Shown piece by piece: positions 6,431 through 19,575 of a DNA stretch of 19,575 bases. The stretch covers positions 1 to 19,575 of the forward strand of contig JAITLF010000320.1 in assembly GCA_031278025.1 (NCBI GenBank), read 5' to 3'. The stretch is from Treponema sp. GTDB lineage: Bacteria > Spirochaetota > Spirochaetia > Treponematales > Breznakiellaceae. Each line of letters opens with the position of its first letter. Within the stretch, counting starts at the first letter, position 1. Below the pieces are notes generated by a model, which saw nothing but the letters and a program-made list of their open reading frames with translations, did not search any database and was not told the DNA's origin. Position numbers and translations under genes: made by a program.

Positions 6431-6463
6431 AATGAGGCTGTTCCAAAACCTCAGGTTAATTAA

Positions 6464-6480
6464 TTCTGTCCGGGACAGAA
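6464..6480 (-). terminator. Perfect palindrome, possible terminator or operator
   Basis: TTCTGTCCGGGACAGAA is a perfect 8-bp inverted repeat around a single base. On the minus strand it is followed by TTAATTAA, so it could stop transcription about 100 bp beyond the redox operon. The absence of a true T-run keeps this uncertain. Confidence 0.35.
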
Positions 6481-6544
6481 CAATTTGACCCCGGAACTCC
6501 GGTTGTTCTATTCAAAACAGAACGATTTGACCTCGGAACGCCGG
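6475..6544. repeat. 28-bp imperfect direct repeat, 42-bp spacing
   Basis: Copies at 6475-6502 and 6517-6544 begin ACAGAAC(A/G)ATTTGACC and end in CGGAAC(T/G)CCGG, with 25 of 28 bases identical. The 42-bp period equals four helical turns. Confidence 0.8.
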
Positions 6545-6582: not shown

Positions 6583-8100
6583 TTAGGCGCGAAGCGCAAC
6601 AGGCGCTAAGATGCCCTGCGGGTCAAAGGCCTGGAGAATAGCCCGGATTTGTTCCAACCGCTCCGGGGAAAGATGGCGGATTAGGAGATCCCGCTTAAGC
6701 CTGCCGATCCCGTTTTCCGCCGCCAGAAGGCCGCCGGCCTTTACCGCCTGGGCCGCCCAGCGATCCAGAAGGGCCCGGCTGCGGGCAATTTCCTCCCGGT
6801 TTCCCGGTAACAGGTTTATATGAAGCCGCCCCTCGGCAATATGGCCGAAGATAAAGCCCCGCAAGCCCGCTTCCTCCAGGTCCCGGCGGCAGGCTTCCCG
6901 GTAAGTCCCGGCTAGTTCCGGGGGAACCTGGTAATCCGCAGCAGTTTTGCACAATTCCGGCAGTTCCCGCCGGAGCCGGTCAAGTTCGCTATTGATAAGC
7001 TCCGGCACGGCGTGGCGCAGGATGCGGAATTTTTCCAGTTCCGCCGGGCTTGCCGCCGCCCAGGTATCCTCCTCCCGGCCCCCGGCGGCCAGAAAAAGCT
7101 CCAACTGTTCCATCAGCAGGGATTCCAGGGCATCCGAATCTTCACCTTCAAGCTCAACCTGAACGGCCCCCGCCGCATGAGGATCGATGAGGGGAAGCTG
7201 CCGCAGGAGCGCGTTTTGGGAAGCCTGGTTCCGCACCAGTTCCAGGGACGGCTGGTCGTAATACTCCAGGGTGGAAAGGGCTTCCCCGCCGGGGGTTTGC
7301 GTCCGCCGCTTCCTAAGGGATTCGGCAAAATCAAGGGCGGGCCGCTCATCTTCAAAGAAGTAAACCACCCCCCAGACGGAGGCCGGCAACGCCTGGAGGG
7401 ACAGGGAAAGTTCCGCCGCAAGGCCCGCGCAGCCTTCGCTGCCCGCAAGAAAATCAAGGAAGTCCAGCCCCGGACGGGGATGCAGGAAGCGGCTTCCGCC
7501 GGGAGCAAGGGTGGCATCGCAGGAAAGGCGTCCGCCGTTAGGAAGGGGGCAGCCGGTTTCATCAAAACAATACCGGCCCCGTTGGATGCGCCAAATTTCC
7601 CCGTGGGGGGTAATCCACGTGAGGCCCTGCACATGATCCCCCACCGCGCCCCACCGCAGGGAATTGGGTCCCCGTGCGTTGCAGCCAAAAGCGCCTCCTG
7701 CGGTTGCCGAGCGTTCGGTGGGGTTGGGGGGAAACCGCAATTTCCGCGCCTGTTTCCGGAACAAGGCGGCGCTTTCGGCATCCCCGCCCCCCAGGGCTTC
7801 AAAGTTCACCCCCCCCTGGACCCGCAGAAGAGGGACCTCCCCGGCGGAAAAGCCCAAAACCCGGTCCATCTTTTCGGTGGAAAGGATAAGCCCTCCCTGG
7901 GGAACGGCCCCGCCGGCGATGCCGGTACGCGCCCCCTGAAGGGTAAGCGGAAGCCCTTTATCCGCGGCGCGGCCTATGGCGGCGGCGGCGCCGGCGGCGT
8001 CTTGGGGAAACACGATGTAATCCGCCTGGCCGCCTAAACGGGACTCGTCACGAAAATAGCTGAGGTAGCCGGGAACAGCGGCGATAAATTGTCCGGTCAT
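6583..8100 (-). CDS. GlcD-type FAD-binding oxidase (2-hydroxyacid dehydrogenase family)
   Basis: The 505-residue protein has the FAD_binding_4 fold (about 25-245): TLQGARTGIAGGAVPQGG near 53-70 binds the FAD pyrophosphate, and NPTERSATAGGAFGCNARG follows. The C-terminal FAD-oxidase_C domain (about 250-505) contains GHIAEGRLHIN (His420, His427) and AENGIGRLK (Glu462), the metal/substrate motifs of D-lactate, glycolate and D-2-hydroxyglutarate dehydrogenases. It probably oxidises a 2-hydroxyacid and passes electrons to the EtfBA pair encoded just upstream; that pairing is known for ETF-linked lactate dehydrogenases. The substrate is unresolved. AGGAAA precedes the ATG. The last codons and stop (…L-A-P-V-A-L-R-A) overlap the dispersed 18-bp repeat, replacing the usual N-P-G-K-type end. 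Confidence 0.87.
   Translation of the reverse strand: MTGQFIAAVPGYLSYFRDESRLGGQADYIVFPQDAAGAAAAIGRAADKGLPLTLQGARTGIAGGAVPQGGLILSTEKMDRVLGFSAGEVPLLRVQGGVNFEALGGGDAESAALFRKQARKLRFPPNPTERSATAGGAFGCNARGPNSLRWGAVGDHVQGLTWITPHGEIWRIQRGRYCFDETGCPLPNGGRLSCDATLAPGGSRFLHPRPGLDFLDFLAGSEGCAGLAAELSLSLQALPASVWGVVYFFEDERPALDFAESLRKRRTQTPGGEALSTLEYYDQPSLELVRNQASQNALLRQLPLIDPHAAGAVQVELEGEDSDALESLLMEQLELFLAAGGREEDTWAAASPAELEKFRILRHAVPELINSELDRLRRELPELCKTAADYQVPPELAGTYREACRRDLEEAGLRGFIFGHIAEGRLHINLLPGNREEIARSRALLDRWAAQAVKAGGLLAAENGIGRLKRDLLIRHLSPERLEQIRAILQAFDPQGILAPVALRA
6587..6604. repeat. Dispersed 18-bp repeat, copy 2
   Basis: This is an exact copy of GCGCGAAGCGCAACAGGC at 3309-3326. Here it lies inside the 3' end of the GlcD-type gene and supplies its last residues just before the stop codon. 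Confidence 0.85.
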
Positions 8101-8142
8101 TCGATTTTCCTTTTTCCTTCATTATGATCTTCCGAGTCCTTC

Positions 8143-8178
8143 TTCATCCGATCTTCCTTCATCCGATCTTCCTTCATC
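8143..8178. repeat. 15-bp tandem repeat, 2.4 copies, spanning the etfA stop
   Basis: On the minus strand the unit GATGAAGGAAGATCG repeats directly after the etfA reading frame, and the partial copy contains the etfA stop codon (within AGATGA). Each unit carries an AGGAAG-like ribosome-binding sequence and an ATGA, in the 73-bp gap before the GlcD-type gene. It may influence translation of that gene. Confidence 0.75.
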
Positions 8179-9322
8179 TGCCCGCGGTTCCCGCTTCAAG
8201 GGCGGCGATAAATTCTTCTGCGGAGGCGAGGATCCCCCTGTCCGCGCAGCGAAAAATGGGGGCGTTCCTATCCGGATTCACCGCTATCAGGGTGGATACG
8301 GACTCGATCCCCGTCATGAAAGCCGCGGCCCCGGATATTCCCAGGGCGATGCAGACTTCCGCGCTGCAGCGGACCCCCGATTGCCCGATGATCTCCCGCG
8401 TCTCCCCCCAGCCGTTAAGCGCGGCGGGGCGGCTGAACCCCAGGGGAGCGCCGAAATGAGCCGCAACGCGCCGCAGCCGGTCGCAGGCGGCCTTGCTTCC
8501 CAGTCCCCGCCCGGCGGCGAAGAGGAGCGGCGCGGTTTCCAGGGGATTGGAGGAGGGCAGGGATTCCGATTGTTCGTAGTCCAAAATCCACTCAGAAGGC
8601 TCCGCTCCGACTTGTAAAGGCGCCTGTACGACTTGTAAAGGCGCCTGTACGGCTTGCAAAGGCGCCTGTACGGCTTGTAAAGGCGCCTGTACGGCTTGCA
8701 AAGGCGCCTGTACGGCTTGCAAAGGCGCCTGTACGGCTTGCAAAGGCGCCTGTACGACTTGTAAAGGCGCCTGTACGACTTGTAAAGGCGCCTCTACGAC
8801 CTGTAAAGGCGCCTGTACGGCTTGCAAAGGCGCCTCTACGACCTGCAAAGGCGCCCTTACGGCTTGCAAAGGAATCGCTCTTTTCCCGATGACGGTCAGG
8901 ATCGCAGGATAGGCCGTGATTTCGGCATCCCCGTCAAGGTTCGAGCCGCAGACTTTCTTACGGGCAAACAGCCGCTTGCCTTCCCCTATAAGCGCCCTGG
9001 TTTCCGGGAAACAGCCGCAGTTGAGCCGGGCGCTAAGGCGTACCCCCAGTTCATGGCCGGCGGGAATTCCGGGCAGCAGTACCAGGTCCGGACGCCGTTC
9101 CGTACAAAGCCGTTCCAACCGGCGAAGACGGCTTTCGGTGTGGCGGATATTCCAGGGGTCTCCGGCGGGCGGCCGGGCCGATGGCCGGGATTCAGCTGAA
9201 ATACCGCCGGCAAAAAGCCAGAACTCAACGCGGTCTTCCGCTTCCCGGACCGGGGCGATAAGGTTCCACAGGAGGGGCGCGGCGGGATCATCCGGCCGGG
9301 GCAGGACAAACGCAAACGTCAT
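8174..9322 (-). CDS. etfA: Electron transfer flavoprotein alpha subunit with heptad-repeat insertion
   Basis: The ATG at 9322 overlaps the etfB stop (ATGA), so the 382-residue product is translationally coupled to EtfB. Domain I covers about residues 1-148. The C-terminal FAD domain (about 262-375) is well preserved: FAAGRGLGS, GFSRPAALNGW, EIIGQSGVRCS, CIALGISGAAAF and VNPDRNAPIFRCADRGIL match the ETF-alpha consensus. Between them residues 149-239 are 13 heptads of the type (Q/E/R)APLQ(A/V)V encoded by a 21-bp tandem array. Without the insertion the protein would be 291 residues, a little under the usual size. The repeat falls at the hinge between the domains. With EtfB it should form the heterodimer that accepts electrons from the flanking flavoprotein dehydrogenases. 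Whether it bifurcates cannot be decided here. Confidence 0.9.
   Translation of the reverse strand: MTFAFVLPRPDDPAAPLLWNLIAPVREAEDRVEFWLFAGGISAESRPSARPPAGDPWNIRHTESRLRRLERLCTERRPDLVLLPGIPAGHELGVRLSARLNCGCFPETRALIGEGKRLFARKKVCGSNLDGDAEITAYPAILTVIGKRAIPLQAVRAPLQVVEAPLQAVQAPLQVVEAPLQVVQAPLQVVQAPLQAVQAPLQAVQAPLQAVQAPLQAVQAPLQAVQAPLQVVQAPLQVGAEPSEWILDYEQSESLPSSNPLETAPLLFAAGRGLGSKAACDRLRRVAAHFGAPLGFSRPAALNGWGETREIIGQSGVRCSAEVCIALGISGAAAFMTGIESVSTLIAVNPDRNAPIFRCADRGILASAEEFIAALEAGTAGR
8606..8878. repeat. 21-bp tandem array, 13 copies, in frame within etfA (array R2)
   Basis: The plus-strand unit contains CTTGTAAAGGCGCCTGTACG or CTTGCAAAGGCGCCTGTACG. All 13 units keep a 21-bp period, so the etfA frame is preserved. 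The middle copies (8649-8753) are almost identical. Copies at the etfA 5' side (8774-8878) diverge more, a pattern expected from recent central expansion. Every complete unit holds the palindrome AGGCGCCT or a one-base variant. Confidence 0.97.
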
Positions 9323-10119
9323 CGTTCCCACCCCCGCAGGTATTCCGCCTGTATTTCAGCGGCGCTTTGAGCCAGATCGGCGCCGCCGGGGAGGAAACGG
9401 CAGAACCTATGCCGCGTTTCCCGGCTAAACCGGACCGCTTTTGTGGAAACGCCCGCTTCTATAAAAGCGGGCGTTTCCACAAAAGCGGGGAGGGTTTCGG
9501 CGCTGCGCTTGGACGCCGCCATCCGGGCGCCCAGGGTCGCCGCCCTAAGCGCCGATACGGGGCTGTTCCCCAGCACCGCAAGAAGCGGCAGGCGGACCCG
9601 CAGCCGTTCCCGGCCCGCAGGGCTTACCCGCTTTAGTTCAATGCCGCCGGTGCAGGGGGCGATCTCCTCAACTTCGGTTATCACCGGAACACCCAGGGCT
9701 TCGGCCAGGAGCAGGGGGACCATGCCGGTATCGGCGTATCCCGCCTGGCGGCCCGTAAGGATCAGATCGAAACCGGCGGTTTTCAGACAGTTCCCCAGGA
9801 GCGCTGCGGTACGCCGGGGCTGGAATTCCAGGACACCGGTTCCGGAGATCTCCCGTACCCGGTCAAAACCGACGGCAAAGAGGGTTTTACAAAAGGAAGA
9901 AGGAAGGGGGCCGGCGGTGAGGGCCGTACATTCGGTCTTTTCCCCCGCCGCTTCCCAGGCCGTACGCAGGCGCAACGCCGTTTCCAGGGCGCTTTCGTCG
10001 AAGCACCCTAAGACCCGCGTAACATAGCCCAAATCCGTAGAGAGGCTGAAATCGTCCCAATCCGCATCAATCACCCCCTCGAATTCGGGAATGACCTTAA
10101 AGCAAACCGTTATCTTCAT
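9319..10119 (-). CDS. etfB: Electron transfer flavoprotein beta subunit
   Basis: The 266-residue protein begins MKITVCFKVIPE and has the typical ETF-beta domain. The signature is GRQAGYADTGMVPLLLAEALG (residues 123-143, quoted here in two parts: GRQAGYADTG and MVPLLLAEALG), and a RVRLPLLAVLGNSP segment follows near 174-187. It pairs with EtfA and binds AMP or a second flavin depending on the ETF class. The last 60 residues are unusual: residues 211-229 (PAFVETPAFIEAGVSTKA) are encoded by a perfect DNA inverted repeat in the linker before the C-terminal arm. The gene lies 21 bp after the AGPS-type oxidase gene and overlaps etfA by 4 bp. No Shine-Dalgarno sequence is visible before the ATG, so translation may depend on coupling. 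Confidence 0.9.
   Translation of the reverse strand: MKITVCFKVIPEFEGVIDADWDDFSLSTDLGYVTRVLGCFDESALETALRLRTAWEAAGEKTECTALTAGPLPSSFCKTLFAVGFDRVREISGTGVLEFQPRRTAALLGNCLKTAGFDLILTGRQAGYADTGMVPLLLAEALGVPVITEVEEIAPCTGGIELKRVSPAGRERLRVRLPLLAVLGNSPVSALRAATLGARMAASKRSAETLPAFVETPAFIEAGVSTKAVRFSRETRHRFCRFLPGGADLAQSAAEIQAEYLRGWER
9435..9488. repeat. Perfect 24-bp inverted repeat inside etfB
   Basis: The left arm (9435-9458) begins CCGCTTTTGTGG and ends CGCCCGCTT. The right arm (9465-9488) is its exact reverse complement, and the loop is CTATAA. The 54-bp unit equals 18 codons and is in frame. A perfect palindrome of this length does not arise readily in coding sequence, so an in-frame inserted palindromic element is likely. 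Confidence 0.95.
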
Positions 10120-17558: not shown

Positions 17559-18791
17559 GTGTGTAACGGCAAAAGAGCCCCGGCCCTGGCGCTGGGGCTC
17601 TTTTTATCCCTCTTCCTCCCCGGCGCTTTCCCGCTTCCGGCGGAGGAAGGCGCTTTTTTCCCGGCGGGGGCCGGATCCCTCTGGGTCGAAGACGGCGGCG
17701 CCGCCCTGTATTGGCGGACCGGCCTTTCCCTCAAAAAGGGAGGGGTTTACGCGGGGCTTGCCCTGGGCCAGGCTGCTTCCAGCCTGCCCTGGGCGGAGGG
17801 GGCGGTTTTCGCCGGCCGTGGGAACCTGAGGTTTGACACGCCCCGGTTCGGCCTTGATCTCAGCGGCGGCTTTTTCAGCCACGGGGTATTAAAAAGCGAA
17901 ACGGAAGCCTTCTCCGTCTACAGCGACGGGGGGCGGGCTTTTTTCGCGGCGGTTAAGGCGCCGGCGCGTTTGGGGGAATGGAGCATCGCGCCGTCCTTTT
18001 TATACGGCTCCGGCGGCTGGACCGGGGGCAGCCTGTACTGGTTCTTCGGCACGCCCAGGATTCCCGCGCTCACCGTCTGCGGCCTGTCCCTGGGGTATCG
18101 CAACCGGCATGAACTGGCCTTTCGGTATCTTTTCATGGATGCGGGCATTCGTAATGCCGATGGCGAGGGGCTTTTTGATTCCCGGCTGGACGCATACGCC
18201 GCCAGCTACCGGCTTTCCCTGGAAACGGGGAACCTCCGCCTGGGAGCGCGGCTGGGCTGGTTCTCCGCCGCTGCCGGGGCAGCCGGGGCTTTGACCGCCT
18301 CAAACCAGCATTACGCCTACTTCCCGTACCATTTCTACGCCTTAAACGGCTCCCTGAGCCTTCACGCCGGCTTTGGGGCGGCGGAACTAACCCAGGCTTT
18401 TTCATTTTTTCAGTACCGCGTTGTGATTGGCGCCGTCCGCCTTTTTCAGGGCGCCGGCGCCGCGGCCATCCATTATAAAAAGAAAACCCTCTTTGGCGGG
18501 GAAGAAGCCGTGGATACCCTGTCCCTGGACACGGGAGGCGCCGGCGCCGCCGTTATTCTGCTTGATGCCGGGCTTCCTTCGCTGCGGCTTGGTACGCGGA
18601 AAAAGGCGCGCCTGTCTCTGGGGCTGAAAAAGCTCTTTGTTGTCCCCTGGGGGTATGAACAAGCCCTTTCCGGCAGTTCCGCGGCGCCGGATGCTTCAAG
18701 CCCTTTAAGCCCTTCAGCTTCTTCAACGAACAGCCTGCTGAAAACCATCTTGCTTTCGGGTTTGTCCTTTTACGGTTCCCTGTATTGGTAA
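17559..18791 (+). CDS. Probable outer-membrane beta-barrel protein
   Basis: The 410-residue product has a signal peptide (hydrophobic ALALGLFLSLFLPGAF, likely cut near PLPA). The rest is made of alternating amphipathic strands rich in Gly, Ala, Tyr and Phe, such as GVYAGLALG, FGLDLSGGFFSHG and LRLGARLGWFSAAAG. It ends in an aromatic residue (FYGSLYW), as outer-membrane barrels do. A Ser/Pro/Ala-rich stretch lies near residue 370-390. The GTG start at 17559 has no Shine-Dalgarno sequence and lies 11 bp after the lipoprotein stop, so coupled translation is likely. No specific family is recognised; a role in surface display or transport with the lipoprotein is inference. Confidence 0.7.
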   Translation: MCNGKRAPALALGLFLSLFLPGAFPLPAEEGAFFPAGAGSLWVEDGGAALYWRTGLSLKKGGVYAGLALGQAASSLPWAEGAVFAGRGNLRFDTPRFGLDLSGGFFSHGVLKSETEAFSVYSDGGRAFFAAVKAPARLGEWSIAPSFLYGSGGWTGGSLYWFFGTPRIPALTVCGLSLGYRNRHELAFRYLFMDAGIRNADGEGLFDSRLDAYAASYRLSLETGNLRLGARLGWFSAAAGAAGALTASNQHYAYFPYHFYALNGSLSLHAGFGAAELTQAFSFFQYRVVIGAVRLFQGAGAAAIHYKKKTLFGGEEAVDTLSLDTGGAGAAVILLDAGLPSLRLGTRKKARLSLGLKKLFVVPWGYEQALSGSSAAPDASSPLSPSASSTNSLLKTILLSGLSFYGSLYW

Positions 18792-18794
18792 CCC

Positions 18795-18840
18795 GCCGGA
18801 CAGCGGAGCCGCCTTCCCGTACCGCGGGGAGCGGTCCGGC
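18795..18840 (+). terminator. Hairpin after the barrel gene
   Basis: GCCGGAC (18795-18801) pairs with GTCCGGC (18834-18840), with partial inner pairing. It starts 4 bp after the stop codon. There is no T-run, so terminator function is uncertain. Confidence 0.35.
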
Positions 18841-18854
18841 GTTTCGGGAAGCGG

Positions 18855-19349
18855 GTCCGGAAGTTCCGTACCCAGGTCCGAAAGTTCCGTACCCAGGTCC
18901 GGAAGTTCCGGACCCAGGTCCGAAAGTTTCGTACCCAGGTCCGAAAGTTCCGTACCCAGGTCCGAAAGTTTCGTACCCAGGTCCGGAAGTTCCGTACCCA
19001 GGTCCGAAAGTTCCGTACCCAGGTCCGGAAGTTCAAGACCTCATTTCTGGAAGTTCAAGACCTGGGTCTGGAAGTTCAAGACCTGGGTCCGGAACTTCAA
19101 GACCTGGGTCTGGAAGTTCAAGACCTGGGTCTGGAAGTTCAAGACCTGGGTCTGGAAGTTTAAGACCTGGGTCTGGAAGTTCAAGACCTCATTTCCGGAA
19201 GTTCAAGACCTCATTTCTGGAAGTTCAAGACCTCATTTCCGGAAGTTCAAGACCTCATTTCTGGAAGTTCAAGACCTCATTTCTGGAAGTTCAAGACCTC
19301 ATTTCTGGAAGTTCAAGACCTGGGTACGGAAGTTCAAGACCTGGGTCTG
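18855..19349. repeat. 21/22-bp tandem array, about 23 copies (array R3)
   Basis: Eight units of type A (18855-19022; core GAAAGTTCCGTACCCAGG or GGAAGTTCCGTACCCAGG) are followed by 15 units of types B and C with core GAAGTTCAAGACCT. Type B units have GGGTCT after the core and a 21-bp period. Type C units have CATTTC and a 22-bp period. The B and C core matches array R1 (minus strand) at 13 of 16 bases. The array fills most of the 618-bp gap between the barrel gene and the partial glpK. Open frames cross it on both strands, but 22-bp units shift the frame, so I treat it as non-coding. Confidence 0.97.
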
Positions 19350-19409
19350 CGGCTGCGGGAAGCGGGGGGCCGGGAACGCCAGAGGCGCCTGCGCTCGGCA
19401 GGGAGGCGC

Positions 19410-19575
19410 TTACGCGGACCAGGGAGGCGCCTTCGCCACAGCCTCCCGCCAGCCCACGAGACGGTGTTCCCGCTCAGGCGCGTCCATAAGCGGGGTGTAG
19501 CGGCGGCGCTTCATCGTGTCATACAAAGTAGGCGGGTAAAGCCCCAATGCCATTCCCGCCATCCACGCCGCGCCT
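19410..19575 (-). CDS. glpK: Glycerol kinase, C-terminal end (partial)
   Basis: The last 54 residues of a minus-strand gene are visible; the rest lies beyond the right edge. They begin GAAWMAGMALGLY and continue through RRRYTPLMDAPEREHRLVGW to REAVAKAPPWSA. This matches the FGGY_C end of glycerol kinases, which read GAAYLAGLAVGFW ... R.F.P.M...ER...AGWKKAV...W. The segment between G-L-Y and R-Y-T-P is about three residues shorter than usual. Glycerol kinase phosphorylates glycerol to glycerol 3-phosphate, the substrate of the GlpA-like enzyme encoded on the same strand 4.4 kb away. Other FGGY kinases such as xylulokinases are possible but fit less well. The reading frame and stop (TAA) are certain. 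Confidence 0.75.
   Translation of the reverse strand, partial: GAAWMAGMALGLYPPTLYDTMKRRRYTPLMDAPEREHRLVGWREAVAKAPPWSA

Follow-up and report, generated by a model that had tools for sequence, protein, structure and literature searches.

The etfA gene of the Treponema contig analysed here (the window, 19,575 nucleotides) contains an in-frame tandem array of 21-bp units, which is probably a coding instance of 21-bp satellite DNA that landed in a tolerant linker. We infer that it shares its cause with the other arrays of this kind, that it was inserted or expanded at the DNA level and that it is nearly neutral in the protein. The following features of the etfA locus are concerned.

Positions 8174 to 9331, minus strand: etfA, 385 aa, electron transfer flavoprotein alpha subunit with inserted heptads.
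Positions 8611 to 8872, minus strand: 21-bp tandem array of 12.5 copies, coding PLQ(A/V)V(Q/E/R)A heptads (TRF and unit list).
Positions 8596 to 8870, minus strand: stretch replacing 83 bp of non-repetitive linker DNA (6447-6529) of contig L001 (blastn alignments end at 8595/6530 and 8871/6446).

The tandem array in etfA was confirmed as real. TRF gave a period of 21 with 92% matches (score 405), and the coding strand shows 12 whole PLQ(A/V)V(Q/E/R)A heptads and a thirteenth that begins PLQV and then diverges (PLQVGAE). Several distinct unit types are present, two of them interleaved, and units 3, 7-9 and 11 have the same DNA. The array is in frame and the reading frame is unbroken, with EtfA on both flanks: the FAD domain ETF_alpha (PF00766) was found at residues 264-343 (E 5.8e-20, 71.5 bits against a Pfam cut-off of 27), and the N-terminal ETF domain (PF01012) gave a weak match at residues 72-179 (20.4 bits against a cut-off of 26.7). 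The array lies in the linker that joins domain I to the FAD/shuttle domain, and its placement at the hinge, as claimed in the preliminary description, was borne out by the Pfam domains and the aligned linker. In the excerpts of the study of Ldh-EtfAB (PMC9232219), the shuttle domain rotates by 75 degrees and two mobile linkers tie it to the base; the EtfA linker, occupied here by the array, is one of them. At an offset of seven positions, 70% of the residues of this linker are identical, and the 56 aligned relatives reach no more than 18%, which rules out chance for the heptad periodicity. A 15-bp repeat of 2.5 perfect copies (8142-8178; TRF) was also found at the etfA stop, ahead of the next gene.

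The closest named DNA was the Treponema MAG contig L001 (JAIRLK010000124.1), followed by L002 (JAISCR010000035.1); the related Treponema MAGs are, judging by their isolate names, presumably termite-gut genomes. The operon is colinear with L001 (blastn identity 91.6% over 6,309 bases and 92.6% over 1,537), and so are the etfA flanks of the array, at 91.6% and 93.2% identity. Between fixed anchors there are 285 bp in the window etfA and 93 bp in L001, and the EtfA linker has 112 aa in the former and 47 aa in the latter. Because the array took the place of 83 bp of L001-type linker, the linker gained 64-65 codons; the thirteen heptads and 91 residues first reported are about right for the repeat, but not for the net gain.

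The protein search covered 5.8 billion proteins and gave 462 matches at E ≤ 1e-3 among 7,999 candidates scored, the best 120 of the 462 being listed. The window EtfA was aligned with 71 of the other 119 listed proteins, and the linker was measured between fixed columns. The near relatives numbered 56 (P0002-P0011, P0013-P0049, P0053-P0060 and the more distant P0065), P0012, P0050-P0052, P0061-P0064 and P0066 having been left out as fusions, fragments or distant. Their linkers are 30-57 aa long (median 40; from the best 120 of 462 matches) and none is heptad-periodic; in 15 more distant EtfA the length is 41-45 aa. The window protein resembles ETF alpha subunits (EtfA/FixB; 5ol2, 7koe, 4kpu, 7qh2) in both domains, in the motif columns of the FAD domain and in the ETF-alpha fold, and differs from other EtfA in its linker of 112 aa. 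The interdomain linker is hypervariable and the least conserved stretch of EtfA, while the W(I/L)L.Y part after it is conserved and retained. The array was absent from all 56 aligned relatives among the matches listed, in agreement with the preliminary description, and the recent origin proposed for it holds, as it is not present in a relative at dS 0.12-0.22.

When residues 150-245 were used as the query, no further bacterial protein with the heptads came up among 7,996 candidates scored; the matches were the EtfA of the window itself and a protein from an annelid (41% identity, E 2.3e-5). The array DNA had one weak match in 145 family genomes, 82% over about 56 bases, inside an array of a different unit. 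A local seed for the unit was not found in the linker of the relative (p 0.80), a result counted against the satellite reading as well as against slippage, and a viral origin was rejected, a 35-base pattern of the unit having 0 matches in viral contigs.

The EtfA domains flanking the array are under purifying selection, with dN/dS against L001 (Nei-Gojobori) of 0.244 before the linker (dS 0.22) and 0.34 after it (dS 0.12); the corresponding value for EtfB is 0.55. Together with the absence of the array in relatives, the domain values indicate that the gene has been kept and that the array is young or, less likely, was lost in all relatives seen. Codon adaptation, with the 13 ORFs of the window as reference, was 0.46 for the array and 0.72 and 0.71 for the two EtfA domains. 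None of 423 overlapping windows of equal length (0.49-0.74, minimum to median) came down to the value of the array, which uses the codons CCT, TTA, TTG and CAA; these make up 11%, 5%, 12% and 21% of their families, respectively. Such poor adaptation is expected of DNA of non-coding origin, and it is support, not proof, because repeating one peptide also narrows the choice of codons.

Besides the etfA array, the 19.6-kb contig carries three arrays of 21-22 bp, none of them within a recognised gene.

Positions 1 to 146, no strand: 21-bp tandem array of 7.0 copies (TRF), at the contig end and 26 bp before a yitT-family gene.
Positions 18854 to 19034, no strand: 21-bp tandem array of 8.6 copies (TRF).
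Positions 19020 to 19342, no strand: 22-bp tandem array of 15.0 copies (TRF).

The yitT-family gene (173-1072) was identified by Pfam (YitT_membrane, E 1.6e-46), and no Pfam domain matched the open frame through both 3' arrays (18785-19489) at E 0.01. A1, A3 and A4, the units of these three arrays, are related to one another, either to A4 directly or by way of it (A1-A4 p 0.010, A3-A4 p 0.008). The etfA unit is unlike the other three (p 0.24-0.93), which was counted against the satellite reading. A single copy of CCTGGGTGTGGAAGTTC was located upstream of yitT in G001 (L138, about 2440-2460) and agrees with the 22-bp unit of the window at 17 of 18 bases (p 0.001). At this locus, where the closest relative has the solo copy, the window carries another, 21-bp array. 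The solo copy may represent the unit from which arrays grow. As a dispersed family CCTGGGTGTGGAAGTTC was rejected, with 4 matches (at most two mismatches) against 1 for the control in G001 and 21 against 7 in nine genomes.

The first sign of similar arrays elsewhere was given by the family protein search (145 genomes, 85 with a match), in which many matches covered nothing but query residues of about 150-245 and frequently contained stops. Ten array-rich genomes were chosen for those matches (G005, G010, G011, G028, G046, G071, G074, G102, G114 and G130) and analysed as stretches only. Their 695,740 bp contained 65 arrays with at least four copies, of which 44 had a period of 20-23 bp (TRF): two of 20, 35 of 21, three of 22 and four of 23 bp. 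Nine other family genomes were G001, G002 and G022 (relatives by etfA), G006, G012, G016 and G020 (no protein match) and G035 and G040 (long contigs); in 954,013 bp they had 12 arrays with at least four copies and none of period 20-23 (TRF). Lowering the threshold to three copies gave two arrays of period 20-23 in the nine (G020, G040), and an array of 2.9 copies is present in G001. As the ten were selected for matches, the contrast demonstrates two kinds of genome but not how frequent each is. The longest array seen has a 23-bp unit in about 59 copies (1.36 kb; L035 910-2269, G011). The array lengths in G074 are almost uniform (about 180-240 bp), which may be an assembly limit, and were given no weight.

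When the window and the ten genomes were taken together, 9 of the 48 arrays were within 90 bp of a contig end. Among the remaining 39, 26 had no spanning open frame (40 codons on each side) and 13 had one, three of them in the window including etfA. As 26 of the 39 cannot lie inside genes, codons do not set the 21-bp period. The open-frame test was run because the gene caller, a crude one based on codon usage, left the surroundings of all 10 G071 arrays without genes. In a larger, partly unit-selected set of 69 arrays (54 of period 21) this caller assigned 52 to intergenic positions, 12 to contig ends, four to the end of a gene and one (etfA) to the interior of a gene. Coding instances are thus rare by the gene caller (1/69), though a gene-length open frame spans 13/39, and this was also counted against the satellite reading. 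The L169 array, called at a CDS end, is flanked by divergent L13 and SecG genes and falls in an N-terminal extension that is spurious, and the open frames of two G071 arrays had no Pfam match over the cut-off. The peak at 21 bp has none of comparable height at 18 or 24 and the arrays are mostly non-coding; it is not explained by codons. B-DNA has 10.5 bp per turn, and two turns would be the obvious numerical match.

The units themselves are mostly unrelated. Similar pairs among 48 units were 3/152 within genomes (all in G074), 0/976 between genomes and 0/5,000 for shuffled units. One G074 unit had 82 matches (at most two mismatches) on 11 contigs and both strands, against 0 for the control, and forms a dispersed family in that genome. 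The etfA unit had four matches in nine related genomes against 17 for the reversed pattern, and thus nothing above the control. Taken together, 51 units had more inverted repeats than their shuffled versions (Fisher 1.7e-7), 12 of them at p <0.05. Palindromic units were rejected as a hallmark, as the units are non-independent, the shuffling was at the mononucleotide level and p was ≥ 0.15 for each of the four units of the window. The best inverted repeat of the etfA unit, AGGCGCCT, was no better than in shuffles (p 0.55), and this lack of a significant palindrome was likewise counted against the satellite reading.

The neighbours of etfA are two GlcD-like FAD-linked oxidases, EtfB, a DUF1667/pyridine-nucleotide oxidoreductase and a GlpA-like oxidoreductase with a BFD domain; the NCBIfam scores of the neighbour genes were all under curated cut-offs. 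The GlcD-like oxidase at 6583-8100 is without about 10-14 residues present in L001 near residue 100 (FEALGGGDAESA vs FEALGSFLNRGLPPEGWDAESA). The partner subunit is encoded alongside, etfB adjoining etfA, and its variable 3' part contains a palindrome.

Positions 9319 to 10119, minus strand: etfB, 266 aa, Pfam ETF (PF01012) at 40-206 (E 1.6e-14, 54.6 bits).
Positions 9435 to 9488, no strand: 54-bp near-perfect palindrome in the variable 3' part of etfB, with 27-nt arms, 96% complementary and without a gap.

The RNA fold of the palindrome has -48.7 kcal/mol against -17.8 +/- 2.8 for shuffles (z -10.95), and no other perfect arm in the 1.13 Mb of family DNA sampled was as long as its 24 bp, the next being one of 19 in G001. 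In the alignment, etfB of L001 is of equal length at this site and has no palindrome of that quality. The region precedes the C-terminal arm of EtfB, which we take to be the other mobile linker. The palindrome looks like a quasi-palindrome made perfect by template switching, and it fits the view that ETF linkers tolerate change at the DNA level.

An adaptive origin, in which the heptads were selected as a long spacer or loosely helical arm setting the reach or the frequency of the FAD-domain swing between the EtfAB base and the partner dehydrogenase, is unlikely. The exact placement of the array in a mobile linker of the shuttle domain, one of two according to the excerpts of PMC9232219, would agree with it, as would the intact frame and domains and the AlphaFold2 model of the array-bearing EtfA, in which residues 191-233 form a helix (pLDDT about 65-82; 167-190 and 233-254 below 50). 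A helix over repeats without alignment depth is, however, weak evidence, and this one is not to be relied on because every heptad has a proline; residues 146-172 of the linker model of a relative (P0002) are mostly below pLDDT 50. The linker of about 110 residues is probably flexible or loosely helical. Also against selection for such an arm, the codon adaptation is the poorest of the 423 windows, no relative has a comparable length (56 aligned, among the matches listed), and arrays of the same period exist where no protein is encoded. The idea that the array tunes electron transfer is unsupported though not refuted: as the codons are the worst adapted nearby, period-matched arrays with other units are mostly intergenic in this contig and the ten genomes sampled, and the site is the least conserved stretch, no protein-level invention is indicated. 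The hinge position stands, and the functional reading does not.

Plain local slippage, in which a short duplication in the linker would have expanded a single time into an ordinary minisatellite, independently of other arrays, appears improbable. The interleaved unit types and identical central copies have the pattern of slippage and block duplication, and the unit is unrelated to the other window units and has 4 matches against 17 for the reversed-pattern control in nine related genomes; yet the period equals that of the surrounding arrays, four arrays in 19.6 kb are far over the family background, and the linker of the relative has no seed (p 0.80). It is very improbable that the metagenome assembler made or mis-sized the array. 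Its copy number may be wrong, this being a metagenome contig, and the frequent position of arrays at contig ends (9/48 within 90 bp) implies that they disturb assembly, but the flanks are one gene, colinear with L001 (91.6%, 93.2%) and in frame, and several distinct unit types occur within the array. REP/BIME arrays with RAYT (Y1) transposases are short, often palindromic, extragenic and sometimes clustered. These transposases were rejected as the cause, since Y1_Tnp matches do not track array content in 19 genomes (0 in array-rich G074, 97 in the 2.2-Mb genome G028 and 0-3 in array-poor genomes), and a CRISPR array was rejected as the etfA units are contiguous head to tail without spacers.

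According to the excerpts of a survey of bacterial satellites (Subirana & Messeguer 2019, PMC6749651), a SATFIND satellite consists of a repeat of 10-260 nt in four or more contiguous copies, more than 4 satellites/Mb occur in only 18/119 bacteria, a length divisible by three is interpreted as coding, and non-coding families of long repeats (>30 nt) that are dispersed are reported only from Leptospira interrogans and Methanocella conradii. The etfA units agree with this definition, with 12.5 contiguous 21-bp copies (by TRF, not SATFIND). Like the satellites in those excerpts, the arrays are head-to-tail and mostly short, some forming dispersed families and some coding amino-acid repeats; unlike them, they number 65 (at least 4 copies) per 0.70 Mb in ten chosen genomes, as counted by TRF here and by SATFIND there, and have a 21-bp peak in mostly non-coding arrays. 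The Rickettsia palindromic elements, as presented in the excerpts of PMC10969869, are likewise DNA-level elements read in frame that leave a metabolic gene intact, but they are single palindromes of about 150 bp in shared families and many genes, while etfA has a tandem array in one gene. In literature on repeats and minisatellites of termite-gut Treponema and spirochetes, with subscription papers and preprints outside its scope, no such 21-bp arrays were described among the matches listed, and 'tandem', 'repeats' and 'minisatellite' are absent from the main text of PMC13067680 on termite-gut spirochaetes.

The satellites, more than the hinge, are the novel part, best read as a variant of bacterial satellite DNA. 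Some presumed termite-gut treponemes, that of the window and the ten sampled, carry many arrays of period 20-23, nearly always 21, with differing units. One array would have arisen in, or been copied into, the hypervariable etfA linker and displaced the old linker, and it would have survived because the linker tolerates changes of length and composition, the unit is free of stops in frame, and 21 bp, being seven codons, keeps the frame. Bacterial satellites are thought to be rare, and a triplet period is usually taken as coding; a sharp 21-bp period in mostly non-coding, unrelated arrays calls for a fixed-step mechanism. Tentatively, one lineage of termite-gut treponemes might possess a so far undescribed activity that makes satellites in fixed steps of some two helical turns (21 bp); it would act genome-wide on unrelated, often palindromic sequences and occasionally write a heptad domain into a working enzyme, here into one mobile linker of ETF, the other, in etfB, having the 54-bp palindrome. 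The etfA array would then provide a dated case of satellite DNA turned protein in a conserved enzyme, with the state before insertion comparable at 92% identity.
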